Assembly: GCA_948567375.1 (NCBI GenBank)
Contig: OX419756.1
Coordinates: 38,206,333 to 38,270,332, forward strand
Origin: Lunularia cruciata
Taxonomy: Eukaryota > Streptophyta > Marchantiopsida > Lunulariales > Lunulariaceae
Length of the DNA stretch: 64,000 bases
Direction: 5' to 3'
The position numbers were made by a program, and so were the translations under genes. Below the pieces are notes generated by a model, which was given only the letters and a program-made list of their open reading frames with translations, ran no database searches and had not been told where the DNA came from. How positions within the stretch are numbered: the stretch's first letter is position 1; each line of letters begins with the position of its first letter. Below are positions 1-44,269 of the stretch, in pieces.

Positions 1-2175
1 AACTTCTATCACCGCTATGTTAGAGGATTTAGTGCCATTGCCAAGGCCTTGACGAAGCTGACCAAGCTTACACAAGAGTGGTGTTGGGGAGATGAGCAGG
101 AGAGAGCTTTTGTAGAGCTCAAGGAGAGGTTGACATCTGCTCCTATTTTGAGGAGACCAATCAGGGGACGAGCATTTCAGGTTCACACTGATTGGAGTAT
201 GTTGGGGCTTGGAGCGGTGCTCACCCAACATGATGATGAGGAGAAGGAGTTTGTGGTGGCCTATGCTAGTCGCTCCAACAATTCAGCGGAGGCGAAGTAT
301 AGTTCATATGAGGGAGAGTGCTTGGCAGCAGTTTGAGCAGTAGCACATTTCCGATGTTACCTATTTGGTAACCCCTTCACTCTCATCATTGATCATCAGC
401 CGCTGAAGTGGTTGATGGAGTCCGAAAAGCTTTCAGGGAAGCTTGCACGATGGGCTCTAATTTTACAGGAGTATGATTTCACGGTTGTTCACAGACCTGG
501 AGTGGTGAACCGTGATGCAGATGGGTTGAGTAGAAACCCATGTCCCAGCCAGCAGGATCAGACCGGAGCACGTTGGCATGGTGAGACAGATGAGGAGATG
601 GTGCCAGGTTGGCATGCATCGGCCTTTCTGTGTATATTTGCAGAGACTTTGGTGGTATCTCTCTCAACACATACAGGAGGAGTTATTGAGGTCACAGATC
701 CAGAGAGTGAAGATATTGGTACAGTTCAGCGAGACATTCATGATGATGTCTTAGTGATGGACTATCTTCGCACTGGTGTTGTGGGTGGCACAGTTGGGGC
801 CAAGGAGAGAGACCGTGTTCTTCAGCGAGCCAGACGGTTCAGATTGGAGGGTAGACACCTTTTGCGTGTATGGGAGGATGGTAGAGTGCGAGTAGTACCA
901 CTTCCATCACAGAGACCACAGTTGGTCCGTCATGCTCATGAGGAGCTAGGACATTTTGGAGTAAAGCGTACATATAGCTTACTCCAGAGTCATTATTGGT
1001 GGCGCGGTATGCAGACCGAGGTATAGCAGTTTGTTGCCAGATGTGTGGTTTGTGACCGAGTTAGAGCATCATTCAATGCTCCTACGCCACAGTTATACCC
1101 ATTACCTATCATGGGATTGGGTTACCGTTGGAGTTTGGACTTCGCCGGACCTTTACCGCTGACTGTGAGACATCATTGGTATGTTTTGGTGATGGTGGAG
1201 CACTTCTCCAAGTGGATTGAGTTGGTGGCACTTCCTGACAAGTCTAGTGAAGGGACAACTTACTCGTTCCTGGATCGAGTTCTTAGTCATTTTGGTGCAC
1301 CAGCTGAGGTTTTGACTGATCAGGGTACAGAGTTCTTGGGAGAGTTTCAGGTCTTGTGTGACAAGGCTTTGATTGATCATCGTACTACATCCCGAGATCA
1401 CCCTGAGGCAGATGGCTTAGCAGAGAGAGTGGTTCAGACGGTGAAGAGAGGATTGCGAAAGTATGGTTTGCAGAGAGGCCACTTGGGAGATTGGGATCTC
1501 CAGTTACCTTGGTTGGCCATGGGCTATCGGTTCAGCCGGCAAGCCTCCTTAGCATCCTTCTCTCCATACTTTCTACTCTATGGACGAGATCCAGATTTAC
1601 CTGCAGCCATTCGTCGAGATGCTACTGTAGTTTTGGACTTGGATGACCCTGATGTATGGATGAGCGCATGTTCTCAGCGGGCAGAGATCTTTCGGAGAGT
1701 GATGCCAATGGCCTTCGAGAACTTGGCAATTGCTCAGCATAGAGATACTTTACGCTGTGCTACCATTCGAGGAGGAGGTTATAGACCCTCGATCCGTCAA
1801 TTTCATCCAGGCGACTATGTATATCTACAGCAGACAGCACCAACGACACTTGATGTTTCTACAGGCCGCACTATCTTGAGAGTGCGCGAGGTTTTGCCAT
1901 CTGGAGTCCTTGTGTTAGAAGGACGTGATGGTGTTGTTTGGAAGGATCATGTGCGCAATTGTGCACCATGCCACCTCCCAAACATTGATGGTACTATGGA
2001 CCCAAGCTTGGCACTTGTACGTGCAGGCTTGAGGTGTATGTTATGTGGCTCTTCTGGTGGAGCTGCTACTATGTTAGTGTGTGATAGCTGTTCGAGAGGA
2101 TGGCATATGGCATGTATGACTTCTCCCCTCACGGTGGTTCCTCAGGGACAGTGGTTATGTCCTAGATGTACTTGA
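1..2175 (+). pseudogene. pol: Pol polyprotein, 3' part: RT end, RNase H, integrase, PHD finger (two premature stops)
   Basis: One frame is open from base 1 to TGA 2173-2175 apart from TGA at 334-336 and TAG at 1024-1026. RNase H shows VHTDWSMLGLG, then YEGECLAA, IDHQPLKWL and DADGLSR, so the acidic residues are present. Integrase has an HHCC-like zinc site (HEELGH, then CVVC across the second stop). Its catalytic triad is Asp 1138-1140 (LDFAGPL), Asp 1318-1320 (LTDQGTEF) and Glu 1423-1425 (ADGLAERV), with 34 residues between the second Asp and the Glu, one fewer than the common 35. An SH3-like tail (HPGDYVYLQ, about 1800-1960) precedes the PHD finger. Each stop is one transition from a sense codon (TGG to TGA, CAG to TAG), as expected from methylcytosine deamination. 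Probably dead, but recently so. Confidence 0.93.
2032..2175 (+). other. PHD finger at the integrase/pol C-terminus
   Basis: The last 47 codons encode a C4HC3 zinc finger: Cys at 2035 and 2044 (CMLC), 2080 and 2089 (CDSC), His 2104 with Cys 2113 (WHMAC), and Cys 2158 and 2167 (CPRC). The Trp two residues before the penultimate Cys (QGQWLCPRC) is typical of PHD fingers, which usually read methylated or unmodified histone H3 tails. It occupies the place where chromoviruses carry a chromodomain. Copy 2 has a decayed version at about 21,250-21,400, so the finger belongs to the family. Confidence 0.9.
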
Positions 2176-2340: not shown

Positions 2341-2344
2341 CGAT

Positions 2345-3002
2345 TGTGGCACTTTAGAGTCTATGTATGACTTATGTGTGAGTTGTGCTTTTATAGTGTA
2401 TGATGTTGACAGCAATGTATGTTGTGTAGCGATGTATATACGCACGACAGCTGTCACGCCATTTGTAGTTCCGCATCTAGATGCTCGGACACTGGAGTTC
2501 CAGTGATGGTAGTTAGAGTTATCTAGCTGTTTCTCAGGGACTACTTTCCGACGGTTAGATTTTGTGTTCGGGGTACTGACTTCACGGTGGGGCCCACCGT
2601 CACTTTGCACCGTTTGCACCGTCGAGTGTGCCGTCAGCGGGACCGTTAGGGTTTCAGGGCTAGCTCGAGTCCAGGGGGTATAGTTTCGAAGTGAGCTCCA
2701 GAGAGCTCACTTCTCTGATGTTGAGCCTTCGAGTTCCTGGCTATGGTGGACAGAGGCCGGCGAGCGTCACCTGGATTCTCTATGCTTGAGTGGGTGTGGC
2801 TTGACTGTAATCAGTGCCCAGTTGTTGGCAGTTTATAGAGTGACAGATCAAGTACTGATCTGAGTTGAGTTGAGTTGAAAGTGTTAAGAAATCTGATTAT
2901 TGTGGCACTTTAGAGTCTATGTATGACTTATGTGTGAGTTGTGCTTTTATAGTGTATGATGACAGCGATGTATGTTGTGTAGCGATGTATATACGCACGA
3001 CA
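2345..3002 (+). repeat. Family P LTR, 658 bp, with about 105-bp direct repeats at both ends
   Basis: Begins TG directly after the polypurine tract and ends CA. Bases 2345-2449 recur at 2901-3002, nearly identical apart from one 3-bp indel and a substitution, with about 450 bp between them. The copy 2 LTR (21,546-22,194) has the same arrangement, so this is a family property. Either the LTR is 658 bp with terminal direct repeats, or the real LTR is about 105 bp and a second LTR with 450 bp of intervening sequence has become fixed in the family. Confidence 0.8.
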
Positions 3003-3506
3003 ACTTTCCTCTCTTCCTTACAATAACATTATCATAGTGAAGTTAGCTAGAGTGAATGAGACCCAAGCAAGATTAGGCTTTCCAATTCCCTCTTCAACTT
3101 CTTCAACTCCTTTTTGCCCTTAGGCTTATGACTTTGAGCCCTAGCTTTAACACCAAATCATATCTTTATCTTCCTTAAAATACAAACTGAAAGAATAATC
3201 AATTCAGTCAAAGTCAAAGTTAGAAGCTTAAAGAAATATGGAATGGTATCAAAACAACAACTCACTAAATAAATTTTCAAAGGCTAAGTACTTATGCATG
3301 TTTCATGTAGGAAGAAGCATATAATCTTGTTGCATTATGCTTATCTTTGGTAATAGTAATAAAAGTAACAATTACTCAATAAGAAAACTACTAGTTCTAA
3401 TGACCTTGTACCAAAAACACTCCTTGCATATCTTGTAAGTGTCAAGTAACTAGTTGCAAACCATTAATAAAATAAGGTATAATTTACTCAAGGATTCCTT
3501 AAATAT
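3003..3506. other. AT-rich spacer, nothing recognised
   Basis: Flank of family P copy 1. Short reading frames only; no domain or repeat that I can match elsewhere in the window. Confidence 0.6.
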
Positions 3507-4097
3507 TGTAATATTCCAAGTGCAAGATTCCCCAAGAGAAACACAAGAGAAGAAAACATAGCTTCACACTCAATACTTCGATGCTCCAAAGGAGCAACTT
3601 GTCTTTATTATATAGCAAAGAGGATCCACTCAAAGGAAGCTCCACACTTGGATCAATACATGAATTGGTGACTTGTCAGTGAGCTCTACTCTTAGATTAG
3701 TTGTATGGATGGGAGACATTTTTGTCTTTGTCTTATCTGGTTGGTCAACAGGTTTGACCAAAGGGAATATTTAGGGAATCTACTTGTAGGAAGTTCAAAA
3801 TTGCATGGGTGAGGTACAATTGGAAAGATTTTGATGAGACAAATTATGGGGAGAAAATGGCTAGCCTTTATTCTTGGTAGGGAGGAATCATCCTATTTTT
3901 GAGGCCTAATTCACCATTTAGGCCTCTAAAATTAGCTCTAAAGTTTTCAAGGCATTTTTGGCACTTGCTCTATTAGTGTAAATACTTTTTTGGTGGCACT
4001 TCTATCCAGTCTACTTAGTCCATCATATATAACATCTTTCTAGATGTTACAAGTCAATTTTCACCTCTAGATAATATGTCTAGCTATTGGTATTACA
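3507..4097 (+). mobile_element. Solo LTR, family A, copy 1
   Basis: Non-coding 591-bp unit beginning TGTAATATTCC and ending GGTATTACA, with inverted TGTAAT/ATTACA termini. It is flanked by AATAT on the left and AGTAT on the right (4 of 5 bases). The same sequence occurs at 20,122-20,727 (minus), 44,498-45,100 and 57,063-57,649, and as fragments at 61,027-61,330. TG/CA ends, 5-bp duplications and no coding content identify solo LTRs of an element whose internal region is absent here. Confidence 0.88.
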
Positions 4098-4689
4098 AGT
4101 ATTCACTAATAAGATTATTTTAGCTTTGCTTGCTTGCTAAGACAAAATGCATTGCTCTTTTGGCACGTCATCTTCTCTACTTCCTATATTAGAAGTAATT
4201 TTATTGTGTCTTGTGGTGCTTACATTTTTGCAAAATTTTTTTATATTTATATTTATAATTTTTGTCTCTCTTTTCCAAAAGGATATGGTAGAATAATTTC
4301 TTCTTCAAGAAAAGAAACCTCTTATTGGAGTTGTGTATGTATATGAAATGGTATAAAGGGCACAAGTATGAAGCCAAATGCACTCAAAAGGAAGAATCCT
4401 AAAAATTTCAAGTCCAAAGAGTGGTCGGAGGGAAAGAACTCAAGTATAAAGGTCCTTTAGACCTAAAGATTGTACACCAATTTGAATGCATTGCCATCTA
4501 CATGGAGAATTGTTGTTGAGGACTATTGGTATCCACCAAAGGGTTAACCTGTGTGGAAAGTGATTGCTCTACCTATCGATTAGAAACCCTAGCTTTAAAA
4601 TCAAGTGCACATGGTGTAATTTCACTTTTTACCCTAAGTCTTCAACCCAAAGAGCTAGCAGGTTATTGCAGTTTTTTGTCATGACATTT
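4098..4689. other. AT-rich spacer, nothing recognised
   Basis: Only short open frames with biased composition. No similarity to protein families or to other parts of the window that I could see. Confidence 0.5.
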
Positions 4690-7350: not shown

Positions 7351-7359
7351 AGTATGACA

Positions 7360-7930
7360 CTGTCACTTGCACCATTTGCACCAACAAATGTGCCATCAAC
7401 AACATCATTAGGGTTGGAGATCTAGATCAAGTAGAGGAGAGCTCATTTCTCTAATTTTAAGCCTTCAAGTTCTTGGCTATGGTAGATAAAGGTTACTAAG
7501 TGTCACTTGGAGTCTCTTAGCTAGAGTGTGTGTGGTTTGATTATAATTAATGCCTAATTTTTGGTAGATTTTTGAGTGGAGGATCATTATTTGCACTATC
7601 AATGGTGCCATAAGGATTGGAGATCCAGGTTGAGTAGAGGGGTATACCTTGAAGTGTAGCTCTAAAGAGCTCATTTATCTGATGTTGAGCCTTTGAGTTC
7701 TTGGGTATGGTAGATAGATGCCGGCCAAATTTTGTATTAGGGCTATTGATTACACTGTAAGAACCACCATCACTTGCACCATTTGCACTATCATATGTGC
7801 CATAAATGGTGCCATTAGGGTTGGAGATCTAGGTCAAGTGGGCATACTTTCAAAGTGCAACTCTAAAGACCAATGCCCAATTGTTTTCAGATTGTTGAGT
7901 GGAGGATCAAGTTCGGATCCAATTTGAGTC
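7360..7930 (+). repeat. Rearranged family P LTR pieces
   Basis: At least two overlapping copies of the LTR middle (TCACTTGCACCATTTGCACC at about 7370 and 7770; GAGCTCATTT at about 7440 and 7670), in the same orientation as copy 1. A third piece, the LTR tail, lies at 8812-8970. Could be the wrecked 5' LTR of family P copy 2, whose coding part begins near 11.8 kb. Confidence 0.7.
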
Positions 7931-8108: not shown

Positions 8109-8811
8109 TTGTGAGTTGGCCTGTCTCTCATGCAAGATGAACTCTGATGGCTATTGAGGTTGCACAACATGGACTAAGAAGGCAAGGAACCCCAAATCCA
8201 TCACATTCCTTCAAGGCTAGAACTCCAAGGCACCTTTAAGACTCAAGACATTGATCACTAGAGAACTCAATGAGAGAGAGATAGTTGCAAATGAAAGGAC
8301 GATGAGTACCTCCTCACTCCTAGCTTATATACTTTTGAAAAATTTACACACCAAAGTTTCTAATTACTAGAGTAATTCAACTTACTATGCTAAAAGGCAA
8401 ATAAAGTCAAAAAGTCTAAAAGAATATCCAAGAATGTGCAAATAATCCCATGAGTAGGTAGTCTTATTCTCACCTACCAGCTAAGTCAAGGATTCCTTCA
8501 CATGAACTATCCTTGGACTATAGAAAAGTCCACACCAACAAAGCTTGTGGGCCCAAGAAGTTCTCAACTCTTTCCTTAAAGTCAAATAACTAGGTATAAT
8601 ATCAAATCAATACACTAGAAGACAAAATAGTGGTACTCACTCCTTTCACTTCCTCTAGAATAGGGTCATCTTTATCTTATCTAGGACTAAATTTAACTAA
8701 TCATGACTAATGTAGAAGCCTAGCTAAACTCTCTATAGATAATATTTTTCCACTACTTGCAATACTAAACTTAATATCCCTATAGATCATATATGCATCA
8801 ATGGGTGTTAC
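8109..8811 (+). repeat. Dispersed repeat family B, copy 1
   Basis: About 700 bp starting TTGTGAGTTGG and ending GGTGTTAC, matching 11,061-11,760 along its whole length with moderate divergence. Non-coding. TAGAC precedes this copy (8104-8108) and follows the second (11,761-11,765), so the pair could be the LTRs of one 3.65-kb element. Against this, the next 160 bp (8812-8970) are family P LTR tail rather than a primer-binding site. Confidence 0.7.
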
Positions 8812-11060: not shown

Positions 11061-11760
11061 TGTGAGCTGGGCTTGTCTCTCACTTAGGATGAACCTCTAA
11101 TATCTATTAAGGTAGTGCACCATGGAATAAGAAAGCAAGGAACCCCAACTCCATCACTCTCCTCCAAAACATAGAAGTCCAAGGCACCTCCAAGACTCAA
11201 GATATTGCTCACTATAGAATTCATTGAGAGAGATACTTGAAAATGAAAAGATGATGAGTTCTTCTTCACCCTTAGCTTATATGAAAATGAAAAAGTTACA
11301 CACCAAATTTACTTTTACTAGAGGAACTCAAGTTACTAGGTTAAAAGTCAAATAAACTCCAAATGTTTAAAGGAATATCCAAGCACATGATAATAATCCC
11401 ATGAGTAGGTGATCTTATCCTCACCTACCAACTAAGTCAAGGATTCCTTCACATGGGCTATATTTGGACTTTAGAAAAAGTCCACACCAACAAGGCTTGG
11501 GGGCCCAAGAGTTGTCAATGCTTTCCTCAAAGTCAAATAACTAAGAATAATACCAAGTCAATACACAAGAAGAAAAATAATGATGCTCACTCTTTTCTCT
11601 TCTTCTAGAACTTGGTCACCTTTATCTTAGCTAGGACTAACTCTAGCTAATTATGACTAATGTAGAAGCTTAGCTAAACTCCATACAGATAATATTTCTT
11701 CACCACTTGCAATACCGTACTTAATATCCTTATTGAATATACATGCACCAATAGGTGTTA
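11061..11760 (+). repeat. Dispersed repeat family B, copy 2
   Basis: Begins TGTGAGCTGG, ends ATAGGTGTTA, and aligns throughout with 8109-8811 (shared blocks include GGCAAGGAACCCCAA-type sequence and ATGAGTAGGT). Followed by TAGAC and then by the protease region of family P copy 2. Confidence 0.7.
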
Positions 11761-11859
11761 TAGACCCTACCTTTGGGCAAGTTTGGTTCACACCTAGAGT
11801 TGTCCTATTAGACAAAAAAATGGGGATTTTCCATTTGGTGTGACCTTTAAGGAAGGTCT

Positions 11860-12080
11860 ACACACCAAAGAGAGGCTTATTAGACTTTGGTGTGCAACTC
11901 CTTATATTATGGAAGGCTATTGTTATTGATATTGAGCTATGGAAGACCAATGTGTAGAGATGTCCATGTTAGATCCAAATATGTCTAGAGGGTGGTTCTA
12001 CACCATACATCACATGAGAGGACCTCATTGTCCAAATTCAGCCTGATCATTTGACTATATCTTTGTAGTGATAACTCAAG
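11860..12080 (+). pseudogene. Retropepsin-like aspartic protease remnant
   Basis: One frame reads LLDFGVQLLILWKA near 11,878-11,920, placed like the active-site loop of retroelement proteases, where Asp-Ser/Thr-Gly would be expected. Here the Ser position is Phe. About 60 residues further on, peptide fragments around PDHLT lead into the conserved stretch at 12,090. Several stops and shifts. It sits directly before the methyltransferase module. Confidence 0.55.
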
Positions 12081-12084
12081 CCAT

Positions 12085-12600
12085 GTGATAATGGAAGAGT
12101 CATATGATGTGCTAGTTGGTGGAGCAATGTTATACCCCATGGGTTTCAATATTGACTATTGGGAGGAAATAGCTTCCTATAGGCCAAATTGGCCATCAAG
12201 GGAGGGATGGGTATGTTGCCTACCATGTGCTTTAGTAGTGGTAGTTTTGTCTCACTATAGTCAATGTTTATGGTATCAATTTCAAATTTTAGTAGTTTTG
12301 TTGCTAGGCTTGGTGAAATTTTGGAAGGAAATGCCCATATGGAAGATAACCCAGTACCAAAGGAAATGGATTGGATTTTGAGTACAAGTGGCATTGTTCC
12401 GTCCACCTTGGATGTTCTATTGAGGAGTTGTGAAGAGGTATTGCAGTAACATGCAGATCAATTGGCACAATAAGTTTGGAGTGGAACCTTTCTACCACAA
12501 AGAGACTAGTGTGAGGATGAGCCTCTAGAGTCTATCACCTTATCACCTTTGGATACCACACTTATTGCTTGGTAGATCCAACAAAGGGAGTATGTTGATT
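12085..12600 (+). pseudogene. Linker between protease and methyltransferase, frame-shifted
   Basis: Opens with ESYDVLVGGAMLYPMGF and IDYWEEIASYRPNWPS in one frame, a compact aromatic-rich segment that looks folded and conserved. It continues in another frame through LGEILEGNAHMEDNPVPKEM and LDVLLRSCEEVLQ. I cannot assign a domain; it may finish the protease or begin the methyltransferase. The frame changes near 12,250 and several stops show it is dead. Confidence 0.6.
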
Positions 12601-12601
12601 G

Positions 12602-13650
12602 GAGTTGTTTGGTGGCATTAGCACTAGACTAGTTATGGTACTATAGGCAAGTATATGAGTACAAAGGTACTTGTATATGGAGAGAGATGAGATTGCTAGG
12701 TGAGTCTTTGTACATTTGTGGTACACTTGGCCTATCAATATCTTGAGTTATTACTAATGTTAGTAGTTAGGGGTTACCAAAAGACCCTACAAATAGATAT
12801 TTCCTTGCTGGGATGCAAGATTTGAAGAAACATGGTCCTATTCATATGGTGATTCTAGATGGTCATGTCAAGGATATATTTGCATTGGCCAATGGCAAGG
12901 TCTATAAGATCCCCATTTTGGTATGTTTTGGGAGATGGTATGTATACTATAACATATCTAGGTTCATTAGTATGTTTCTCTAGCCTATATTTTGGAGAAT
13001 ATCACTTTGATGGGTGATTCTCATACGTGAGTGGTAGCAAGTACACACTAGGTCCAATCTTGGATGGGACCTCCCATGTTGTTGGATGCAGCCAAAGTGG
13101 GATCATGAGCTCCTTGTCTTAGTCTTTGGTGGACAAACCTCTTATCAAGAGAGGTTCTACAATGTGCTTATGATGGAATTTAATGACTAGACTACCTTAT
13201 TGTCAAAATTATTTTGGATGTGAGGTGCCAGTCTTTGACGGTGGTAGTGATTGACAGGTCACCTATGGGAATCATGAACCTTGTTAGATAGACTAGAGCC
13301 GCTTTACCCATACTTATGAGTCTCCAAAGCTCCCATGCTTTTCAAGAGGGAGGTCCTAGATTTGTTTGGAGCTCATAGTTATAGTAGTTGGTGCAGCCCA
13401 ACACCAATGAGAGGGAGTGGTGATGGGTTTTTGTCCCAATAGTACAATTATTATCATGCTTTTCAAGAGGGAGGTCCTAGATTTGTTTGGAGCTCATAGT
13501 TATAGTAGTTGGTGCAGCCCAACACCAATGAGAGGGAGTGATGATGGGTTTTTGTCCCAATAGTACAATTATTATGGCAATGCTAGAGGCGTCCAAGCAT
13601 CAGATGTTAGATTACGCTATAGACCTGAACTATTTGACCTAGATTGTGAG
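12602..13650 (+). pseudogene. DNA (cytosine-5)-methyltransferase domain inside the retrotransposon, decayed
   Basis: C5-methyltransferase motifs appear in order over about 310 residues. Motif I: ELFGGIST (12,602-12,625), the cofactor-binding loop. Motif II region: RYLYMERDEIAR (12,665-12,700). Motif IV: SCQG, with the catalytic Cys at 12,866-12,868; the usual Pro before it is Ser (a CCA to TCA change), and a one-base deletion lies just upstream. Motif VI: LENITLMGDS (Glu-Asn at 12,995-13,000). Then WWTNLL (about 13,127) and a C-terminal NERE...LEASKHQMLDYAIDLN segment resembling motifs IX-X. Many TAG/TGA/TAA codons interrupt it, and a 121-bp tandem duplication lies in the late part. C5-methyltransferases have been reported in a few charophyte-alga and dinoflagellate retrotransposons. 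Position between protease and RT shows it is element-borne, not a host gene. Confidence 0.85.
13334..13575 (+). repeat. 121-bp tandem duplication in the methyltransferase region
   Basis: Two adjacent units, 13,334-13,454 and 13,455-13,575, starting CATGCTTTTCAAGAGGG, with a single mismatch seen by eye. They cover the segment before motif X. The copies are far more alike than the surrounding decayed sequence would allow, so the duplication is young. Confidence 0.93.
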
Positions 13651-14039
13651 CCTTGGCATGGCAGAGCAACATAAGATGTGCTTGATAGACATCACCACTT
13701 GGACACTTATGAGCTCTATGCCTATGAAGATGATTAAGGCACATGTGGGGGTGGGGGATTGAGTGGGCATGGTATTCTTGGGACAAATCCAATGGCTAAA
13801 AATGAGAGTGGTCTACTTGGGTCCATCCAAGTGAGTGTGGTCTACTTGAGTTACACCATTGGTCTACTTGGGATGCATCTAGAGGACACATGGAGCTTAC
13901 AATAAGAGTAGAGGGAGTCTCCCATATTGAGATTGAGGATTCTAGTGGTTGGAGGCATGATATTACTATTACTACTCCCAAGGGCTTGATGTAGTAGCCA
14001 GCCAGTCCATCTTCTACTCCTACATCAATTAATTTGATA
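13651..14039 (+). other. Linker between methyltransferase and RT, decayed
   Basis: Frame fragments continue (for example GMAEQHKMCLIDITTW just after motif X), with no domain recognised. A short repeated phrase GTGGTCTACTTGGG occurs at about 13,808-13,870. Confidence 0.5.
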
Positions 14040-14419
14040 CTTTGAAGCCAAATATTGGACCTAAGCTTACAAGAGAAGAAAGATGGAGAGTTTGAAGGTT
14101 CCTGAGGAGCTAGATGTGTTGTTTTTCCATCAATATAAAGAATTTTGGTGCTCTAAAAGGATATGGTATTTAGATTGAGTTGACTAGTGATACATTAGTT
14201 TTTTGATATCCCTAGTGATATGAAGAGAGCATTGATTTAGAGCCAGAGTAGAGACTTTTTTGAGACTAGTTTGGTGGAGATTTCACATGGAACGTATGCT
14301 TCAACTAAAGTGATACCAACCAAGAAAGATATGCATGACAACTACACAAATAAGTAGATGTGTGGAGATTACCATCCTATCAACCTATAGACTAGGGTTG
14401 ATAGGTATACCATGCCTAT
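14040..14419 (+). pseudogene. pol: Reverse transcriptase N-terminal part (family P copy 2)
   Basis: Fragments such as LVEISHGTYAST, IPTKKDMHDNYTNK, MCGDYHPIN and VDRYTMP correspond to fingers/palm blocks 1-2 of Ty3/gypsy RT (the K-D-G-x-R-M-C-x-D-Y-R-x-L region). Stops interrupt it. The frame ends at 14,419, where a foreign element is inserted; RT resumes at 18,172. Confidence 0.8.
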
Positions 14420-15189
14420 TGTGGTATACATATTTTTTGGGTTTTGGATAGTTTTTAGGAAAATTTGAAGAAGAAGTACATTAGTAAAGCCTAAAGAGGG
14501 CTAAACGGGAAAGAAATAAGAAGAAGCATGTGTTTGGGGCAAACCCAAAGTCGACCTTGGGTCAAGACCAAAGGACCCAAGAGGGACAAGACACAAAGAT
14601 GAAGAAGTCCAGACTTTGTATCAAGTGGTGTGGTCTGCTCCAAAGAACTGGTAACAAACTTTTTTGGAGGCGGCCCAATCAAGAAAGTACACAAGAAGAA
14701 AGTAATGGCCTCATGATCAAGATGTTCTTAATAGTGATAGGAAACCAATCCCACAGAATTGGTGACTAGAAAGGAGAAAAAAACTGAAGAATGACTGATC
14801 AGCGCAGGACTATAAAATCAAGAGTTTTGCAAGAAAGCAGCACAATGTCCAGACGCTACCCTGTCCCTATTTAGAGTCAACCCAAAGTAATGCAAATTGC
14901 ATATCCATAAGAAGAAGAGTGGGTTAGGATCTCAAGAATGATCTTTCACAAGAAGAAGGTGAGGAAACACACAATGACCCCGAAAGTGAGTAAGCAGAGT
15001 GCGGTGAGTGGACTTTGCAATTTGTAGTTAGAAGTAAAAGTGCGGATCAAAGTCTTGGCAAGACTTTGTATCACGTTCTTGGCCTAGAACTAGAACTCCA
15101 ATTTTCCAGGTTTCATTGTAGAAATCACCGCAAGCAATTGCAAGGATGGACTAAAGCACAAGGGGAAGAGAAGAAACCCATCTTGACGG

Positions 15190-17378
15190 ATGGAGTCGGA
15201 TTGGAGAGTAGTCCTAGGGAGAGAGGCAGGAGAGGTAGGAGGTACCACCTTCTATTGGAAGTGTGATGCTTCAAAAGAGACTATCAAAGTGAGGAACTTG
15301 TTCAATCAACCTCTAACCAAGAATGGGTATAAGGTGGATAGTGATAGAGACCCCAAGCGGAGAGGGATTGTTAGAACGATGATGGCAATGTTCAAATGAG
15401 AGCAAACCACCTATATTATGATGCAACAGGCGGTGTTCTTTCACCAAATGTTTGTAGGAGAGGTAGTAGATTGGGCAAAATGTGTGCATCAGAGAGTAGG
15501 GCAGATGATTTTGGGGTGGAGAATGGATATGCCACCGCATTATTTCATGCCCTTTGTAGTGCATTTTTACTTTGGGTTGAACTTGTTGACTTCGGAAGAA
15601 AGAAATCAAATGCACTCGCACTTTCATCCGGATCTATGGAAGGAGGCAGATGCAGATGAACAATATTATATGGAAAGGGCGCAAGACAGGGATGAGTACT
15701 ACAAGAAAAGTGGGAAGGAGAAGATTGTAACAATTGACATCCCAAAGGCTAGAAAGAGAACCAAGCTTGAAAGTTGCCTTGCGACAGTTCAGCTCCCGAA
15801 GGTGCCAAAGCTTAACCCAACGACAATGATGGTGAAGATGAAAGAATCCACACCAAAAGGAAAAACTGGATCGAAGGAATAAGCGTCAGGAGAAGAAGAA
15901 GAGTTCACTCTGCAAAGTGAAGAATCAAGTAGTGGCAATGAAGGTGAGGTAGAGGTTTAGCAAACCTAAACGCCGATGGTGGATGCAAAGAAGCCAAGTC
16001 CAAAATTTTTTCTGATTGAACGGGGAGGTGAGAAGAAGAAGGAAGAAGAAGTCATGGCACAACCACAAACTGCAAGACAGAAGAACAATGTGCATGCAGC
16101 CGAGGTAGGGCCTAGTAAAGTTGTCATGGAAGGAGAGGAAGCTTAGATGGTGAAACCTTGAAAGTACAAAGATCATGACTTTGGAGTAAGGTGCAAGAAG
16201 TAGAGTTGCTGGAAGATGAAGACAAAGGCCGAGCTGATGACAAGAAATGTGAAGGAGTGGAGTATTTCTGAAAAGTAGTGTGTCCGTTGTTGGTGTTCTT
16301 GCAGTATAAGAAAGTAGAGATGGTGAGTGCCAATCTTGATGTACGTGATGAGTTGGCAGTAGTGAAGAAATGGAGTATAGAAACCTTGTTGTTGCAAAGT
16401 AAGCTAACAAGAGTAAAGATGGAAGCCAAAGAACTTCGGGTGGAGGAGATTCTTTGGAGTAAGCACTTTGAAGTCATGAGGGAAGACTTAGTAAAATGTT
16501 GTGAGGAGGCAAAGGAGATGAAAACTTTGGTTGCGGTGTTGAAGGGAAAAATCATAGATGCTTGAGTCAAGTTAATACACTCAAAGGCAAGTATAGTAAT
16601 GACAGAGTAGGAATTGGAAAGTCTCAAGAAGAAGGCCATTGAGAAAGATCAAGCCTAGCAGCGAGAGTTAGCAGAGCACGGTAGAGAAGAAGATTGATTG
16701 CAAGGATTGGTGAGGGTAGTAGAGGAGCAAATCTTTGTGAATCAAAGAGAGAAGGAGGCATTGAAGGCTGAATTTAAAGATGTGTTAGACGAGCTCTAGA
16801 TGTATCATAATGAATTGGAGGAAGAAAGAAAGAAGGAGAAGCTCAAGATTGTAGGAGAAGCTCAAGATGGTAATTGTGTAAATGAAATCAAGGCGATGTT
16901 GAGCATGGAAGTTGAAGGTAAACTCAAGGAAGCAAGATTGCATGAGCTGAAATTATTGGTACAAGAGACGTGCAAGAGAAAGGCAAAGGACATGGAGTTG
17001 AATAATTTGTTAATTCATCTGCGAGAACGTGTAGATAGGAAGATGTTAGAGGTAGGAGACAATGTGTGTCTTAGATTGGATCTTGTTGGGACACAGTTAG
17101 ACAAACTTTCTAGTGAGGTACAAGAAGTAAGAAGACCCTAAGTAGTAGAAGTAGGAGTACAAGTGTCTTTGGAGTTGTCATCTGAGACATTAGAGAAGAG
17201 TGGGGTAGAAGATAATGAATTAGACAAGGTACCCACTAGTGCAATTGTAGTTTGTAGTGAAGACATTATAGAAATAGAAGAGTTAGGAGTAGGATTGAGT
17301 AGACCCAAACATAGTGAAATTCTTGAGAGATCATTGGGTTTGGAAGCCAAAGTCGAAGTAGACATTGAATTGGAGTAG
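15190..17378 (+). pseudogene. Unrecognised gag-like/coiled-coil protein of the inserted element
   Basis: A reading frame of roughly 700 codons, broken by stops and one or more frame changes. The N-terminal part (15,190-15,880) starts MESDWRVVLGREAGEVGG and has a globular, Trp/Phe/His-rich region (QMFVGEVVDWAKCVHQRVG, PPHYFMPFVVHFYFGLNLL, HPDLWKEADADEQYY). The middle (15,880-16,260) is rich in Lys, Glu and Ser. The C-terminal part (16,278-17,141) is a long charged, heptad-like coiled coil (KEARLHELKLLVQETCKRKA). Stops are mainly CAA/CAG/CGA-derived TAA/TAG/TGA. No RT, integrase or zinc knuckle. I do not recognise the family. Confidence 0.6.
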
Positions 17379-18171
17379 AAACCAATTTTGAGATTTGAAG
17401 AGGCAGATATGAAGAGTTGCATTGCCATTTTGGATTTGTAGGTTTGTAGAGTTGTTACAAATGGTATAGTTGTTAGTAACTGTTGCTTGCTTTACTATTT
17501 AAGGGGAGCATTCACAGTCATATGTTGTTTGGTATTCATAATTTCTGAGAATAGAAAAAGCAAAGTGCTGATTTTAGTGCTCGTCGCGTGAGCTTGATTC
17601 CGAGTATCAACGTTGTGTGTGTGTTTCTAAGTCTGTGGAGAATTCTGAAGTGCAAATCAGAGTGTGTTGGATGTTAGATTATGCAGCTTGATCTTCATTC
17701 TGTGTGTTTGATCCAAAGAGAAGTGCAATTAGAGCAATGCCTTGACAGATTTGAGAGGAATTGCAATGTTGGTATTATTTTGCATTTGTGAGTGCAATGC
17801 AATGTTGATGTGAAGAAATTTTGCTCAAGGAAGTTGTGCCTTCAGTGGAGGGGTGGAATACAATTTTGAGGCAAAGTTGTTTTGCAGTGAAGTGCCATTT
17901 TCAAGAGAATCAGAATCCTCACAATCAAGATTGTTTGGAAAGAATTGATGGAGTTGTGATTAAGTGTGACAAATTGTTATGATGAGACTGCAAATCAGTG
18001 CTTGTTACTCTCTTTTGGGTGTAGTTGCTACTTGAGAGATTAAAGATGCAGCCAAGAAGAACTACATTGTGACATTTGACTTTATATTTGACCAATTCTA
18101 ACTAGTATCTCTCCAAGAATGAACTTTACTTACCTGATTATTGCAAAAGTGATATTTGCCAAGTTGTCACA
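17379..18171 (+). other. 3' non-coding end of the inserted element, possible LTR
   Basis: About 790 bp with no open frame, GT- and TG-rich, containing a TATA-like CTATTTAAGG near 17,500 followed by a TGTGTGTGTG run near 17,615. It ends in GTTGTCACA at the insertion boundary. This fits a 3' LTR with its own promoter, but no matching sequence was found at the 5' end. Confidence 0.4.
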
Positions 18172-20121
18172 CCTAAAGTAGAGGAGATCTTTGATGCAAT
18201 TGGGTATGCAAAGGTCTTCAATACTTTAGATCTTTGAGCAAGATATCATCAATTGCCAATTAGGGAGGAAGACAAGTCCAAGACACATTTTGGGCTATTG
18301 ATCATCATGATAAGGATGTATTATATCAATGGAGATTCTTATCATTTGGGTTAAAGAATGCTCCTACCAAGTTCTAGAGGATCATGGACAAGATACTAGT
18401 ATGATTGGGTTTTGCTTGGTACTATATTGATAATATTTTGGTCTACAACACTATTTTTGAGAAGCATAAGAGACATTTGTTGGAGGTGTTTGAGAGGTTG
18501 AGATCTAAAATTACATCATGTGAAGTGTAGATTCTTCCACAAGGAGGCTGAGTATTTGGGTCACACTATATACCTTGGAGTACTTGATTTGCAGTAGACC
18601 AAGGTGGAAGCTATTGCATGCATTCTTGAGACTATCCATGTGAGAAACTATTCCTTGGGTTGGCAAACTTCTATGGCCAATATGTTTGAGGATTTAATGC
18701 CATTGCCAAAGCCTTGATGAAGCTAACCAACCTTACATAGAAGTGGTGTTGGGAAGATGAGCAAGAGAGAGATTTTATAGAGCTCAAGGACAGATCGACA
18801 TCTGCCCCTATTCTTAGGAGATCAATCAAAGGATGACAATTCCAAGTTCATACTAATTGGAGTACATTAGGGCTTGGAGTAATGCTCACCCTATAGGATG
18901 ATGAGGAAAAGGAGTTTTTGGTGGCTATGCTAGTTGCTCCAACAATTCAAGGGAGAAAATTATAGTTCATATGAGGGAGAATGTTTGGCAACAATATGGG
19001 CAGTTGCACATTTATGATGTTACCTATTTGGTAACCCTTTCACTCTCATCAATGATCATCAACCACTAAAGTGGTTGATGGAGTCCAACAAGATTTCAAA
19101 AAATCTTTCATGATGGGCTTTGAATTTATAAGAGTATGATTTCATGGTTATTCACAAACCTAGAGTGGTGAATCATGATGCAAATGGGTTTAGTAGAAAC
19201 TTATGTCCTAGCCAATAGGATCAGACTAGAGCATGTTGGCATGGTGAGACAAATGAGGAGATAGTGCTAGGTTGCATGCATCTAAATTTCTATTTTTATT
19301 TTTGAGGCCATGGTGATATCTCTCTTAGCACATATAGGAGTAGTTGTTGAGGTCATAGATCCAAAAGGTGGAGATATTAGTGTAGATCAATTGGACATTC
19401 ATGATGATGTCTTAGTGATAGATTATCTTCATATTGGTGTTGTAGATGGCACAATTGGTGCCAAGGAGAGAGACTTTGACCTTTAGCAAGCAAATTTGGA
19501 GGGTAAATATCTTCTTCATGTATGGGAAGATGGTAGAGTGCAAGTAGTACCACTTCCATCTCAAAGACCACAGTTGGTATATCATGCTTATGATGATATT
19601 TTGGAATAAGGTGTCCATATAGCTTACTCCAAAGTCATTATTGATGGCACAATATGCATACCAATGTGTAGTGGTTTATTGCTAGATGTGTGGTTTGTGA
19701 CCAAGTTAGAGCATCATTTAATGGTCCTATGCCAAAATTATACCCATTACTATCATGGGATTGGGTTATTGTTGGAGTTTGGAATTTAGAATTTATTGTA
19801 CTTTTATCATTGATTGTGAGACATCATTGACATTTTTTGGTTATGGTGGTAACACTTCTCCAAGTGGATTCAGTTGGTGGCACTTCCTGATAAGTCTAGT
19901 GAAGGGATAGCTTACTTGTTCTTGGATTAGGTTCTTGGTCATTTTGGTGTACTAGTTGAGGTTTTGATTGATCAAGGTACAAAGTTTTTGGAAGAGTTTT
20001 AGGTCTTGTGAGACAAGGCCTTGAGCAATCATTGTACTACTTCTTGAGATCACCTTGATATAGACGTCTTAGCAAAGAGAGTGGTTTTGATGATGAAGAG
20101 AGGATTGCGTAAGTATAGTTT
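18172..20121 (+). pseudogene. pol: RT C-terminal part, RNase H and integrase of family P copy 2
   Basis: Resumes with VEEIFDAIGYAKVFNTLDL and runs through the RT active site, which reads YIDN at 18,423-18,434, so the second Asp of Y-x-D-D is lost by a GAT to AAT change. From about 18,650 it parallels copy 1 base by base: RNase H, then the integrase zinc region near 19,680 and the core near 19,800-20,110. Many nonsense codons and indels. The frame is cut by a solo LTR at 20,122. Confidence 0.88.
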
Positions 20122-20727
20122 TGTAATACAATAAGCTAGACATATTATCTCAAGATGGGAATTGGCTTGGTACTATCTTTAAAGATGTTATATATGATGG
20201 TCTAAGTAGATCAGATAGAGGTGTCACCAAAAGAGTACTTTCTCTAATAGGGTAGAGGTTAGAAATACCTTGAAAACTTCAAAGCCAATTTTGGAGGCTT
20301 AAATGGATGAATTAGGCCTTGAAAAATGAAAATGATCTCCTGTGATCTCCTTCAAGAAGTAAGGCATTTTTTTCTCCTCCCTTCCTTTTTTGTCTCATCA
20401 AGAGCTTTCCAAAAATACTTCACTCATGATGTTTTGAGCTTCCTATAGGAAGATTCTCAAAGATTCCTTTTGGTCAAACTTGTTTGACCAACCAAATAGG
20501 ACAAGGATTGACATGTCACCAATCCATGCAACTAATCTAAGGGTGGATCTTGCTGACATGTCACCGATCCATGTATTTGATCCAAGGATGTAGTTCTCTT
20601 TGAGTGGATCTTCTTTGCTATATATCAAAAGCAAGGTGCTATTTTTGGGACACCAGAGTATTGAGGAATGAAGCTTTATGTTTTTCTTGTGTTTCACTTG
20701 GGGTTCTCTTGTCCTTAGAATATTACA
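20122..20727 (-). mobile_element. Solo LTR, family A, copy 2 (antisense)
   Basis: 606-bp unit in reverse orientation, with GTAATACAATAAG at the left and GAATATTACA at the right. The flanks are AGTTT (20,117-20,121) and AGTTT (20,728-20,732), an exact 5-bp duplication. The uninterrupted target is visible in copy 1 near 1457-1470 (AAGTATGGTTTGCAGAG), proving the insertion point within the integrase. Confidence 0.96.
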
Positions 20728-21400
20728 AGTTTGTAGAGAGGCCATACAAGAGATTGGAATCTCTAGTTACCTTAGTTGGCCATGGGATATTGGTTCAATT
20801 GGCAAGTCTCCTTAGCATCCTTCTCTCCTTACTTTCTACTCTATGGAGAGGATCCAAATTTTCCTATAGCCATTCATTGTGATGCTACTATAGTTTTGGA
20901 CTTGGATGATCTAGACGTTTGGGTGAGTGCATGTTCTCAATAGGTAAAGATCTTTTGGAGAGTGATGCTTATGGCCTTGGAGAACTTAATGATTGCTCTA
21001 CCTTACACTATTCTGCTATTTAAAGATGAGGTTATAGACCCTTGATCCATCAATTCATCCAAGTGACTATGTACATCTATAGCAAACTACATGTTGACAC
21101 TTGATAGCAACACTATCTTGAGAGTGCATGAGATCTTGCCTTCTAAAGATTTTAATTTGGACGGACGTGATGGTGTTTTTTAGAAAATTCATGTGCACAA
21201 TTGTGTGCCGTGACACCTTCTAAACATTGATAGCACTATAGACCCAAGCTTGAGGTGTATGTTATGTGGCTCTTCTAGTAGAGTTGCTACTAGATTGGTG
21301 TGTGATAGCTATTCAAGAGGATGACATATGGCATGTTTGACTTGTCTTGTCACAATAATTTCTCAAGGACAGTGGTTATGTCTTAGATGTACTTGACATA
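20728..21400 (+). pseudogene. pol: Integrase C-terminus and PHD remnant of family P copy 2
   Basis: Continues the integrase after the solo LTR and parallels copy 1 positions about 1465-2175. The PHD finger is recognisable (CMLCGSSS, then CDSYSRG, HMACLT, QGQWLCLRC) but one zinc Cys is Tyr, and a stop precedes the His. A short deletion removes the linker before it. Confidence 0.85.
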
Positions 21401-21545: not shown

Positions 21546-22194
21546 ATTTAGCACTTTAGAGTTCATTTATGACTTATATGTGAGTTGTGCTTCTATAGTG
21601 TATGATGTTGATAATGATGTATGTTGTGTAGAGATGTGTATATGCATGATAACTATCATGACATATGTAGTACAAAAGCTAGTTTGCTCAGACATTGGAG
21701 TGGTAGTGTTGACAATCATAGTTATTTTAGTAGTTGCTCATGGACTACTTGATGGTGGCAAGATTTCATGTTAGGGCTACTTATCACATGGTCGGACCCA
21801 CCATCACTTGCACCGATTGCACCATCGAATGTGTTGTCAATGACATCATTAGGGTTAGAGACCTAGGTCCAATAGAGGGGTATACTTTTGAAGTGCATCT
21901 CTAGAAATTTCACTTCCTTTGAGTTCTTGGGTATGGTGGGCAAATGCCGGCGAGTGTCACCTAGAGTCTCTTAGCTAAAATGGGTGTGGCTTGATTATAA
22001 TCAATGCTTGATTATTGGGATATTGTTGAATGAAGGATAGAGTATAGATCTGATTTGAGTGTGATTCAAGTGGAAGCATGAACTGATTATTGTTGCACCT
22101 TGAGTTCATGAATAAATTATGTGTGAGTTGTGCTTCTATAGTATATGATTTTGACAACAATGTATGTTATATAGGAATGTATATATGCATAATA
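21546..22194 (+). repeat. 3' LTR of family P copy 2
   Basis: Follows the G-rich tract TTAGGGGGC. Aligns with 2345-3002 in full, including the roughly 100-bp repeat at both ends (21,546-21,655 and 22,092-22,194). TG/CA ends are mutated. Confidence 0.85.
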
Positions 22195-23352
22195 TATGAA
22201 ACTTTGAATGATTGGATCCAAATTACTAAGGAGTGTATATAATTTCATTTAAGTAGCTTTCTTTAAAAAAATGTGATTAAAAAATATATGTATTTTTCTA
22301 CCATTAAAAAGTTTGCATTTTGCAACATGAGTACCTAAAACTCTTGTTGAGGTTTGGACTGTATGACTTGAGGTCCAGATTCAATACTTACGTACATCTA
22401 TAACTAGACCATATGTAGAGATCTAGGCAATTGTATATGTAAGATCTAGACCTCTTCTACAAGGTCCAAACTTCAACAAGGTCAAAAGAAGGGTTTAACT
22501 CTAGAAGGATCTTGATAGAAAGTCTAAAAACTTTTTATAGTTATCTAGACTTCTATATGAGGAGTTCAAACTATGAAAATACTAAGGCAAGGACCGCCAA
22601 ATGATTGTTGGGACCTTTTGTCAAGTGTCAAAAGCTTCAAAGTAAAGGTCTAACATTTGAGATTGGTCAAGTCCAAACTAGAACATAATGTAAATGCTTA
22701 TTTTTCTTTATCAATGCTTATCTTTTTGAAGGATACATACTTAAATATTTTTAACCCAATCTTCATGATTTGCATAAAGATGATTGAAATGTGAACCTTT
22801 ATAGTGATGGTATTTCAGCAAGGTAAAAATAATTAAAGCGTTATTTTCTGAATTATCTACTAAATTGAACTTCCTTTCAGCCAAGATCTAAGCATTGCAC
22901 TTAGAAAAATGCAATTCAACAAAAATAGCCATGTTGTACCTCTATATTATCTTCTTCAAGTACTAGTTAAAAAATTCAAGGTATGTATGTATGTATTTTT
23001 TGGCTATAAACTATGTTGAAATGCATGTTTTGCATGAACAATGACCTTGTATATGGAGAGTCCTTTGACTCTCCACATGAAAAATATCGTTCCATGATCT
23101 TCATGAAATGAATAAAAAACACGTATAAATAAGAAATCATTAGCTTTAGCTCACTCATACCTGAATACCACAAAATCCATCCATCTCGGCTTTTATCATA
23201 ATAGATAGGTCCACCCCTGGCTATATTTTTCAGTATCTTTTTATCTTTTTGACCTATACCCAACTAGGTTGGAAGTTTATGTGGTTAATGTTAAAATGGC
23301 CATCTCCGAATCCTGAAACCCAAGCGTTATCTACCGTTAGAGGTTTTGGTTC
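22195..23352. other. Spacer, nothing recognised
   Basis: AT-rich, with no coherent frame, repeat or RNA gene recognised. Confidence 0.55.
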
Positions 23353-25325: not shown

Positions 25326-26540
25326 TTGTGTGAGCCAAAATTATTTTTAAATTGTATCTTGGTGTGCAAATGAAAACAAAGCATACACAAGGAGAAGTGA
25401 ACTAAATCTTCTATACACTTAATTAGTTGGATGATTGAAAAAAGACAACAAGATACTCTTTTATAGCTTTTAATTGCATAAGTGAACTTGTTGCAAGAGT
25501 TATTTTCATTATTATTGAGTCTGCTTTCCTCGTGGTTTATCAAACTCATGTCAAGGTCAAGAAGAGGATTGATGCTTTGTTTTTGATCTAGAATAAATAT
25601 AGATCTTATTAGTATCAACATTCCTACCTTTATGCAATTCCCTACTATGTTCTTCATAAAAGACAATAAACACGATTTTTCCTGTCATGCAAAAAATTGC
25701 TCATTTGAGATCTTCTTTATTTTAAAGATTATCTACTAAAGATGAAAAATCAAACTTGCTCAATTACCTTTTGCTTTCCTATGCAAGGTAATATTACAAT
25801 CTTCCAAATGAGAGAGATTTATGACATATCTTCGTTACTTATAGCGAGCAGATCTTTGTAGAAGAGGAATAAACTTACCTCATAAAAGATTATTTTGTGC
25901 TATGGTTTGAACCCTATTCAAAGCTTGATTTTCATCCAAAGTCCACATAGATATTTCTTTATCTCTAGAACTATGTCAAAAATTTAAGATACATTAAAAC
26001 AAACTATGATGGGAAGGAGTTCTAAGACCTATAATATATCATTGCATATCGGGAGTAAGTGTACATGTATAGGAGGTTTACAAAAGACGGAGGATGATTT
26101 TTGGCCAACAAAAGAAACCAAGATATTAGAGTAAAGACAGTATCAAGCACAAGAGAAACTTTATTAGTTTTTGAATCAGAATATGAATTGGAAGTGAGGT
26201 TGTTGAAGAACTTGATGAGTATCGGAAGATTTTGTTGGTCCACCAAGAGATTTATTTTACCTTCTACTTGTAACTTTAAAGGCTAGTCTTCATAGTGTAA
26301 TGTTCATAATTTGACAGGCAAAATTTTTTTGGCATTAAATCATGTGTGGTTTGGAAAAAACTCTTGGTCTGATAAATAAGAATAAAGAGAAGGAAGAGAT
26401 ATTTAAAACTTTGAATCTAGATTAGCTTGGATTTCGTGGATAGACTGACTTAGATATCCTCACCCTAACTTCATCAACTAGTGGTAAGTCGTCATGCATA
26501 TACCTTTGATTAGGATAAAAGCCTAAATCGTAGTTGTCAA
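25326..26540. other. Spacer, nothing recognised
   Basis: Low-complexity AT-rich DNA. A 128-codon minus-strand frame at 25,280-25,666 overlaps the mariner end and resembles nothing I know; probably chance. Confidence 0.5.
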
Positions 26541-27080
26541 TAAATTTAGGGAGCCCGATCGGGGAGACACCCATCTTTGGTTGGTTCGGGAGACATCCAT
26601 TTAGAAACTGGATGGTACTAAAAAAATCAATCGTTCATGAACACATTATTTATAGTCCTTGTGTTCATGACTGCAGGCTGGGTACTTGTCAAAGCTCCTC
26701 CTCAATTCAACTCAAATTCTCAGTTTATGGTGTATACATACGCGCAAGATATCAGTCTCGAATGTCAGATGAGATATATAGAGACTCAATGCTGTTTCTA
26801 AGTTTAACTTGAGCGATAAATGTTAAAAGAACAAAATCTCGAATGACACATGAGATATATAGAGGTTCAGTGCTGTTTTTAACTTGAGCGTCAAATGTAA
26901 AAAAAAAGAAGGAGTCTAGGATGACAGATGAGATATACGGAAGATCAGTGCTGTTTCTAAGTTCAATTTGAGTTTAACACTTGAACGTTAAATGTAGAAA
27001 AAAATTATTTAACTCTCGAGGTTCTGGAAACACTGTCACAAGATTGATAACGGTGTTTCCCGACCAGCTCCCTAAATTTA
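26541..27080. mobile_element. Short terminal-inverted-repeat element (MITE-like) with internal tandem repeats
   Basis: Left end 26,541-26,571 (TAAATTTAGGGAGCCCGATC...) and right end 27,052-27,080 (...CCAGCTCCCTAAATTTA) are near-perfect inverted repeats of about 30 bp. Both ends have TA outermost, compatible with a TA duplication. The 540-bp interior is non-coding and contains three tandem units of about 80-95 bp (26,755, 26,836 and 26,915 onward), each with the TGACAGATGAGATATA-type motif and a GTGCTGTTTCTAAG block. Fits a non-autonomous DNA transposon. Confidence 0.75.
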
Positions 27081-30000: not shown

Positions 30001-30620
30001 ATGTTACCTACATTCGCAAATTCAGCAAGAAAGGAAGAGTTCTAATGATCCATTCTGGGATGGGTCATCAGTTCTGATAACTTATGATATTACACTCACC
30101 ACTGAATCTTAAACGAGCGACTAGTTCATTGAATTTCTTCAATAGACGGGCACGCTATAATTCATTCAAACGGAGTGTGGTGTGCACAACTTGTATCCTA
30201 CTGGAAATCTCAAGAAACTTCACGCCTGTAAGTCGTATACATCAACTTAAATTTGTGTTGTTTTCCACGAGGTTTTCATGAACGAAAGATTCCGTATACG
30301 CTCTATTCAAATGTTTAAATGAATAGAAAGAATACTTACTGCAGTCTCTGTGTAATTCCATACTGTTGGCAGAAAGTAGCAACTCTCCTCGTGGATGATG
30401 TGTAGGTTAAATTAGGGGGTTTGTTGACATGGATTAGTCCACATGGCAACAACTGGACAAGAGTTGCCTAGGTAGTGCACCATGTGTAACTTTAAGTTTG
30501 GACTTTTGGCAGGAGAATTTTCAGTTGGTATTTTACAAGAGACCATCAACAATGCCAGAAAACGACAAAACAGCAAGGGTCAAAGTTGAATGACTAACAA
30601 ATGACAATCCGAAGACGGAG
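27081..30620. other. Lower-copy region, locally GC-richer, no supported gene
   Basis: Composition differs from the retrotransposon relics: more CpG and fewer homopolymer runs. Short frames exist, such as a 99-codon plus-strand frame at 27,191-27,490 and a 117-codon minus-strand frame at 28,968-29,321, but none shows a known domain or codon pattern. A degenerate direct repeat of about 38 bp occurs at 28,195-28,235 and 28,910-28,948 (CGT(T)AAACAGGA...CTAGAA...AAGCG). Could hold unrecognised exons or non-coding RNA. Confidence 0.4.
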
Positions 30621-30628
30621 TATATAAG
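30621..30628 (+). promoter_or_regulatory. Candidate TATA box
   Basis: TATATAAG in a GC-richer context (GACGGAGTATATAAGCCG), followed by a pyrimidine-rich stretch. No convincing coding region follows (an ATG near 30,696 meets a stop after five further codons), so this is only a candidate. Confidence 0.22.
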
Positions 30629-34786: not shown

Positions 34787-35016
34787 ACAGATTTATCATA
34801 CAGACTCTATTGGAACTTAGCTCTATGTTATTTATTTTTGTCTCTCCCTTTTATATGGCTTGATGACGTCTTCCCATCCTTCATTTTTCCTCCGCGATCA
34901 GAACAGATTTTTCATACAGACTCTATTGGAACTTAGTTCCATGTTATCTATTTTTGTCTCTCCCTTGTATGGCTTGATGGGGTCTTCCCATCCTTCATCT
35001 TTCTTACGCGATCGCC
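34787..35016 (+). repeat. Tandem duplication, period about 116 bp
   Basis: Units 34,787-34,902 and 34,903-35,016 share CATACAGACTCTATTGGAAC, TTTTTGTCTCTCCCTT and TCTTCCCATCCTTCAT, with scattered differences. Non-coding. Confidence 0.9.
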
Positions 35017-35214
35017 TTTTATACTTTGGCACTTCGACTTAACGTACCCAAGCTGGCTAAAAGACTTAATAGTATCCCAAAGCTTGACGTGGAGAGACGT
35101 GGCAGTTTAGTCTTAGTTAGCCACGAATATATCAATGGAAGTGGCAATGTTCCTGTCCTGAAAGTTAAGTTACATAATTATTGAGAAATGCAAATTTCAG
35201 ATCTATTTAACTAC

Positions 35215-38640: not shown

Positions 38641-38715
38641 TCCAATGTAACAATATGGAGTTTAGCGACGAAGTTAGTCAGGCTTATAAAGTAGCAAATA
38701 AGACAAATTAGCCTA

Positions 38716-38728
38716 GAATATTCTGGAA
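38716..38728 (+). promoter_or_regulatory. Heat-shock element 1 in the chromovirus 5' LTR
   Basis: GAATATTCTGGAA fits GAAnnTTCnnGAA exactly and lies about 220 bp upstream of the TATA box. Confidence 0.6.
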
Positions 38729-38790
38729 GTATCTAGGAAGCTTCTTTGCAAGCTTCTCGGCTAGCTTAGCTTGCACCTCAAGTAAGTAGC

Positions 38791-43852: not shown

Positions 43853-43855
43853 ATA

Positions 43856-44264: not shown

Positions 44265-44269
44265 TCCAA

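Follow-up and report, generated by a model that had tools for sequence, protein, structure and literature searches.

A 64,000-nucleotide stretch of the Lunularia cruciata genome (GenBank assembly GCA_948567375.1, contig OX419756.1, forward-strand positions 38,206,333 to 38,270,332), termed the window here, contains the remains of a Ty3/gypsy long terminal repeat (LTR) retrotransposon, designated copy 2, in which a predicted DNMT3-type cytosine-5 methyltransferase (MTase) domain lies on the plus strand between the protease and the reverse transcriptase (RT). A preliminary description of this DNA had placed ordered cytosine-5 methyltransferase motifs at 12,602-13,650 and proposed that the enzyme was built into the retrotransposon. 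An all-frame reading of 12,000-14,400 recovered every one of these motifs, in order and in frame +2: ELFGGIST (I), YMERDE (II), SCQG (IV), LENI (VI), WWTNL (VIII/IX), and MGF with AIDLNYL (X). The location was borne out and the limits were not: as delineated by tblastn and by alignment with relatives, the domain is longer, spanning 12,578-13,741. Its 388 codons include 25 in-frame stops. The motif order, the catalytic Cys and the motif-VI Glu are retained; the P of PCQ, the motif VIII Arg residues and the G of motif X are lost, and a 121-bp segment between the ERE/MGF region and motif X is tandemly duplicated within the domain (13,334-13,575, plus strand; 99% identity). This copy of the element is dead.

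The neighbouring domains agree with the position between protease and RT that had been proposed. Upstream on the same strand, a decayed aspartic protease (11,766-12,062; tblastn with P0004 and P0022, relatives being denoted by P numbers) reads LLDFGVQLLIL where the relative P0004 has LLDSGAQPLMLGK, and is followed by a conserved linker in frames +1 and +3 (12,085-12,572; P0001, P0002 and P0004) that carries YDVLVGGAMLYPMGFNIDYW, then LEGN, then LSPLDTTLIAW. Downstream, the N-terminal part of RT occupies 14,045-14,435 of the plus strand (P0006, P0019 and P0052).

Since the pieces of the window MTase themselves match no Pfam methylase, homology was established through relatives. The best tblastn pieces obtained in the window with P0001, P0002 and P0003 scored 223, 225 and 200 bits (E-values 8e-88, 8e-67 and 8e-55), whereas these queries reached at most 28 bits in any of 100 dinucleotide-shuffled windows. 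A protein collection searched with the stop-masked MTase reading returned 12 proteins at E <= 0.01, led by one from Calypogeia fissa (E-value 1e-89), then a metagenome protein, then proteins of Marchantia polymorpha, Sphagnum and Riccia, among others. Five of the ten that were scanned pass the Pfam DNA_methylase cut-off, and the remaining five hold part of the domain only; in P0006-P0010 it is truncated or deleted. At the level of sequence comparison, the identification of window 12,578-13,741 as a decayed DNMT3-type MTase in frame +2, flanked by the protease and RT of a Ty3/gypsy element, is confirmed.

The relatives in Marchantia, Calypogeia, Riccia and Sphagnum extend such elements to land plants, as the preliminary description had anticipated. 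All relatives bearing organism names, from the MTase searches and from the best 120 of 306 matches in an integrase-PHD search, are bryophytes or green algae, one having an organism code that we take to denote Chromochloris. Marchantia accounts for 20 of 67 MTase relatives, although several annotations of one genome are included and the loci may be fewer. Relatives of P0001 sought among viral contigs gave no match to the patterns. In the MTase tree, rooted with one partial DNMT3A, copy 2 groups with Sphagnum and P0002 (95/97) on a very long branch; neither this tree nor that of the integrase-PHD part includes a host plant DNMT3. As annotated, Riccia P0006 seems to start in a different frame of the MTase region: its residues 1-58 match window 12,865-13,038 in frame +1. 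The similarity is at the DNA level, and the Riccia gene model is probably in error.

Architectures were tabulated for 74 proteins with an MTase domain, many of them too short to reveal a PHD finger. The MTase is preceded by a protease in 48 and followed by RT in 13; six (five from Marchantia, one from Sphagnum) encode protease, MTase and RT within one protein, and in Riccia P0006 the end of the MTase continues into RT. Because six relatives join all three in a single protein, the MTase is not a chance insertion beside the element, and the proposal that it is built into the retrotransposon holds: the predicted DNMT3-type MTase is an integral part of this Ty3/gypsy family. In eight proteins RT and RNase H lie upstream of the MTase, and five of these (P0060, P0061, P0064, P0066 and P0068) have an integrase downstream, defining a second MTase position between RNase H and integrase. 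These eight and three proteins with no visible RT form one branch (100/99), which includes the green alga Monoraphidium; the second position would reflect relocation of the MTase within Pol or its acquisition on another occasion. MTase and PHD finger occur together in eight of the 74 proteins. Equal-sized contigs for three protein pairs (P0038/P0082, 8,955; P0027/P0080, 6,232; P0029/P0081, 36,659) suggest that the members of each pair are the MTase-bearing open reading frame (ORF) and the RT-integrase-PHD ORF of one element. Copy 2 is almost certainly the dead remnant of a Ty3/gypsy LTR retrotransposon in which Pol normally has a DNMT3-type MTase placed between protease and RT, with a PHD finger following the integrase.

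Alignment of the relatives showed a canonical, unpermuted motif order, with the P present in 51 of 56 sequences, the catalytic Cys in 55 of 55, the motif-VI Glu in 57 of 57, the motif-VIII Arg residues in 52 of 56 and 55 of 55, and the motif-X Gly in 50 of 52. Among cytosine-5 methyltransferases the closest solved structures are those of DNMT3A and DNMT3B. By motifs and closest structures alike, the MTase of the relatives is assigned to the DNMT3 type, with enzymatic activity predicted. Pairwise comparison of six protease-linker-MTase proteins, chosen by hand from the 48, ranked the MTase above both protease and linker in conservation in all 15 pairs (0.72 against 0.53 and 0.45 in one of them). 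The invariant catalytic residues and the leading conservation of the MTase in every pair argue that the enzyme has been under long selection.

Beyond the first RT segment, copy 2 is interrupted twice. An insertion with approximate edges (14,436-18,159), placed by the gap between the RT pieces, splits the RT; self-comparison of the window found no terminal repeats for it, and the search for a target duplication yielded just 6-base matches. The remaining RT and RNase H (18,160-19,272; tblastn with P0024 and P0059) and the first part of the integrase (19,349-20,121; P0123) follow on the plus strand. A repeat of about 600 bp (20,122-20,728), with a candidate 5-bp target duplication AGTTT, is inserted in the integrase, the end of which resumes at 20,729-21,393 together with a PHD finger at 21,256-21,390 (plus strand; P0008 and P0076; eight stops in 219 codons). 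Protease at 11,766, RT at 14,045 and 18,160, RNase H, and integrase from 19,349 reproduce the Ty3/gypsy order of protease, RT, RNase H and integrase (rve). No gag was detected upstream, none of 193 query proteins matching between 2,400 and 11,600. Similar stretches at 2,343-3,008, 7,358-7,909 and 21,551-22,195 were found by self-comparison, nested insertions obscuring any clear LTR pair for copy 2. Direct repeats of 700 bp with 82% identity (8,110-8,810 and 11,061-11,760) lie just upstream of the protease and are probably the LTRs of another nested element.

A second element, copy 1 (1-2,172, plus strand), comprises RNase H, the zinc-binding and core domains of the integrase, and a C-terminal PHD finger at 2,035-2,169 (Pfam E-value 5e-10), as identified by Pfam and by tblastn with P0078 (72%). 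It is truncated by the window start, the region equivalent to the MTase falling outside; with two stops in its frame (334 and 1,024), it is young but not intact. Segment 18,666-20,121 of copy 2 is 82% identical to copy 1 by self-comparison, the two are sisters in the tree of the integrase-PHD part, and copy 1 is assigned by sequence to the same family. In that tree both stand beside bryophyte and other rows (SH-aLRT 94, below the starring mark of the program). The integrase C-terminal PHD finger of the two window copies was also seen, among the matches listed, in proteins of Klebsormidium, Chromochloris, Tetrabaena and Gonium.

DIRS elements use a tyrosine recombinase, and copy 1 encodes an rve integrase where SymbioDIRS-Dnmt3 would have such a recombinase in its place. 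Retrotransposon-borne cytosine-5 methyltransferases have been reported from Klebsormidium Gypsy elements and from dinoflagellate DIRS and LINE elements (de Mendoza et al. 2018, PMC5890265), in agreement with the attribution to a charophyte alga and dinoflagellates in the preliminary description. The dinoflagellate SymbioDIRS-Dnmt3 and SymbioLINE-Dnmt share with the window family a retrotransposon-borne enzyme but belong to other retrotransposon classes (PMC5890265), the window family having, by Pfam, the rve integrase of copy 1. The nearest precedent, KnitGypsy-Dnmt3 of Klebsormidium nitens, likewise has an unrearranged Dnmt3-type domain in a Gypsy Pol of the green lineage and is under constraint (Ka/Ks < 0.2; PMC5890265). 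The hosts here, in contrast, are land plants; the repeats of KnitGypsy-Dnmt3 are DIRS-like according to a figure legend (PMC5890265), whereas the ends of copy 2 are obscured by nested insertions; and the term 'PHD' is absent from the accessible main text on KnitGypsy-Dnmt3 (PMC5890265), while a PHD finger is present in the window family. Four integrase-PHD proteins of K. nitens (P0087, P0093, P0110 and P0133) are 47-54% identical to copy 1 among the matches listed, and none of the MTase relatives found (12 and 67 proteins) bore a name that would identify it as coming from K. nitens. Host DNMT3 proteins of non-flowering plants, such as PpDNMT3 (PMC6453930), share the DNMT3-type catalytic domain and canonical motif order but are products of host genes, whereas the window MTase lies in a retroelement polyprotein. 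Chromoviruses (PMC6317226) share a Ty3/gypsy Pol with a module of histone-reader type after the integrase; the window family differs in having a PHD finger where the chromodomain stands, and in having the MTase. Neither 'PHD' nor 'methyltransferase' occurs in the accessible main text of that chromovirus survey (PMC6317226).

The most likely way of working, to which we give slightly less than even credence, is that the MTase methylates the element's own cDNA. Translated within the polyprotein, it may be packaged together with RT, so that new double-stranded cDNA would be methylated before integration, probably at CG; the new copy would integrate already marked, host maintenance methylation would preserve the mark, and the insertion might be tolerated or hidden instead of being treated as naked foreign DNA. 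Our analysis itself shows that the domain is present, to which class its fold belongs, where it lies in the Pol of relatives, and that its catalytic residues are conserved. Methylation of their own cDNA was proposed for DIRS elements by de Mendoza et al. (2018, PMC5890265), who report that two SymbioDIRS domains methylate CG in yeast. Taken as a whole, the explanation that joins the identity of the element with cDNA methylation has, in our estimate, a probability of roughly 0.5.

Several points weigh against that explanation. The direct match of the window to a cytosine-5 methyltransferase profile, by which the preliminary description would have had its identification checked, was obtained in neither Pfam attempt: frame +2 with X at stops matched 0 families, and four MTase pieces gave no methylase match. 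We do not count this as refutation, because the decay of copy 2 is severe and matches are obtained with its relatives. The narrowest lead of the MTase over the protease was 0.49 against 0.47, and the relatives compared had been gathered through words in common with MTase queries, a procedure biased toward conserved rows. The decay of copy 2, described below, points to host methylation and not to self-methylation. To our knowledge, no activity is known for any Gypsy-borne MTase. KnitGypsy-Dnmt3 gave no methylation in yeast, a result that its authors consider inconclusive in that human DNMT3B failed as well (PMC5890265).

With copy 1 taken as the older state, C-to-T changes toward copy 2 affected 65 of 126 CG, 86 of 191 CHG and 96 of 762 CHH sites (two stretches summed). 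Four other pairs of elements in the window show C-to-T changes more often at CG than at CHH in all eight directions and at CHG than at CHH in seven of eight, although several pairs have very few sites and some contrasts are weaker than in copy 2. A reading of the copy 2 decay as self-methylation was rejected, the CG- and CHG-biased change being common to other elements of the window; because the same kind of bias occurs there, the decay is ascribed to host methylation. Such a bias is what plant CG and CHG methylation leaves on silent repeats, and it is uninformative on self-methylation.

Among alternatives to cDNA methylation, the one that survives best, although we think it unlikely, makes host chromatin the target of the MTase, either where the element inserts or close by, with the integrase-PHD portion directing the enzyme there, so that a writer and a histone reader would together provide a safe, silenced neighbourhood. 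Consistent with this are the C-terminal PHD fingers of the integrase in copy 1 and in its relatives, and the eight proteins with both MTase and PHD finger. The MTase mostly adjoins the protease, however, far from the PHD finger, and processing by the protease would probably separate them; many of the MTase proteins are too short to show a PHD finger. A non-DNA role, whether methylation of RNA or tRNA or nucleic-acid binding in the particle, appears more improbable still. DNMT3 enzymes act on DNA, and the domain is nearest to DNMT3 in both sequence and fold, DNMT2-type tRNA methyltransferases scoring only 0.009 at best in one structure comparison and 0.0014 in another; RNA methylation was nevertheless raised for SymbioLINE-Dnmt by its authors (PMC5890265).

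We disfavour, as very improbable, the view that the MTase is a neutral hitchhiker acquired by the element and unselected. Broken copies do exist, in the 25 stops of copy 2 and in the truncations and deletions of P0006-P0010, but the catalytic residues are invariant across diverged rows, the MTase is the most conserved of the three segments in all 15 pairs, and it is found in liverworts, a moss and a green alga. That a host DNMT3 pseudogene lies beside or within a single element copy can be virtually discounted: only one window copy reaches the MTase region, copy 1 being cut by the window start, but the six proteins joining protease, MTase and RT refute this for the family, and in Riccia P0006 the MTase runs into RT.

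DNA methylation is usually viewed as a weapon of the host against transposons. A land-plant element family that keeps DNMT3-type catalytic residues reverses this view, and poses a question testable in Marchantia, a genetic model. More broadly, and more tentatively than for cDNA methylation alone, we propose an old green-lineage family with a writer (the DNMT3-type MTase) and a reader (the PHD finger) in Pol, its catalytic site kept from green algae to liverworts, mosses and Lunularia, its MTase in two Pol positions, and its new copies possibly methylating themselves; if this is true, transposon silencing would be partly self-inflicted in these plants. Counts of DNMT3-like genes in bryophyte genomes may include genes that belong to transposons. 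Gypsy elements with a DNMT3-type domain in Pol are already known from K. nitens, and the conserved bryophyte copies are of more interest than the dead window copy. PMC12344493, citing the 2018 paper, refers to retrotransposon-borne DNMT3 members in 'streptophytes and dinoflagellates'. In the titles, abstract openings and text passages surveyed, largely from outside subscription journals, we found no report of an MTase-bearing Gypsy element in bryophytes or vascular plants, of the PHD combination or of the second position, nor does any appear in the accessible portions of PMC9033089, PMC5784723, PMC10952607, PMC6317226, PMC6338049 and PMC6453930.

Elsewhere in the window, the observed/expected CpG ratio, below 0.5 over most of its length, reaches 0.56-1.06 at 26,000-31,000 and 34,000-37,000; these blocks may be recent DNA of organelle origin, or DNA unmethylated for another reason. 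Scans with Rfam (gathering thresholds) and for tRNAs found nothing in the window, these blocks included, and the ORF at 27,131-27,490, the sole one tried there, has no Pfam match. The repeat of up to about 600 bp that interrupts the copy 2 integrase (20,122-20,728) recurs, on both strands, at 3,506-4,098, 44,525-45,101, 57,115-57,649 and 61,040-61,328, and could represent a solo LTR or else some non-autonomous element. Further Ty3/gypsy elements occupy 38,007-44,265, 44,500-48,437 and 62,907-64,000. In the first, Pfam identifies RT and RNase H and gives a weak chromodomain match (E-value 6e-5, just below the Pfam cut-off), and repeats of 92% identity are separated by about 5.2 kb; the second shares 69% DNA identity with it.
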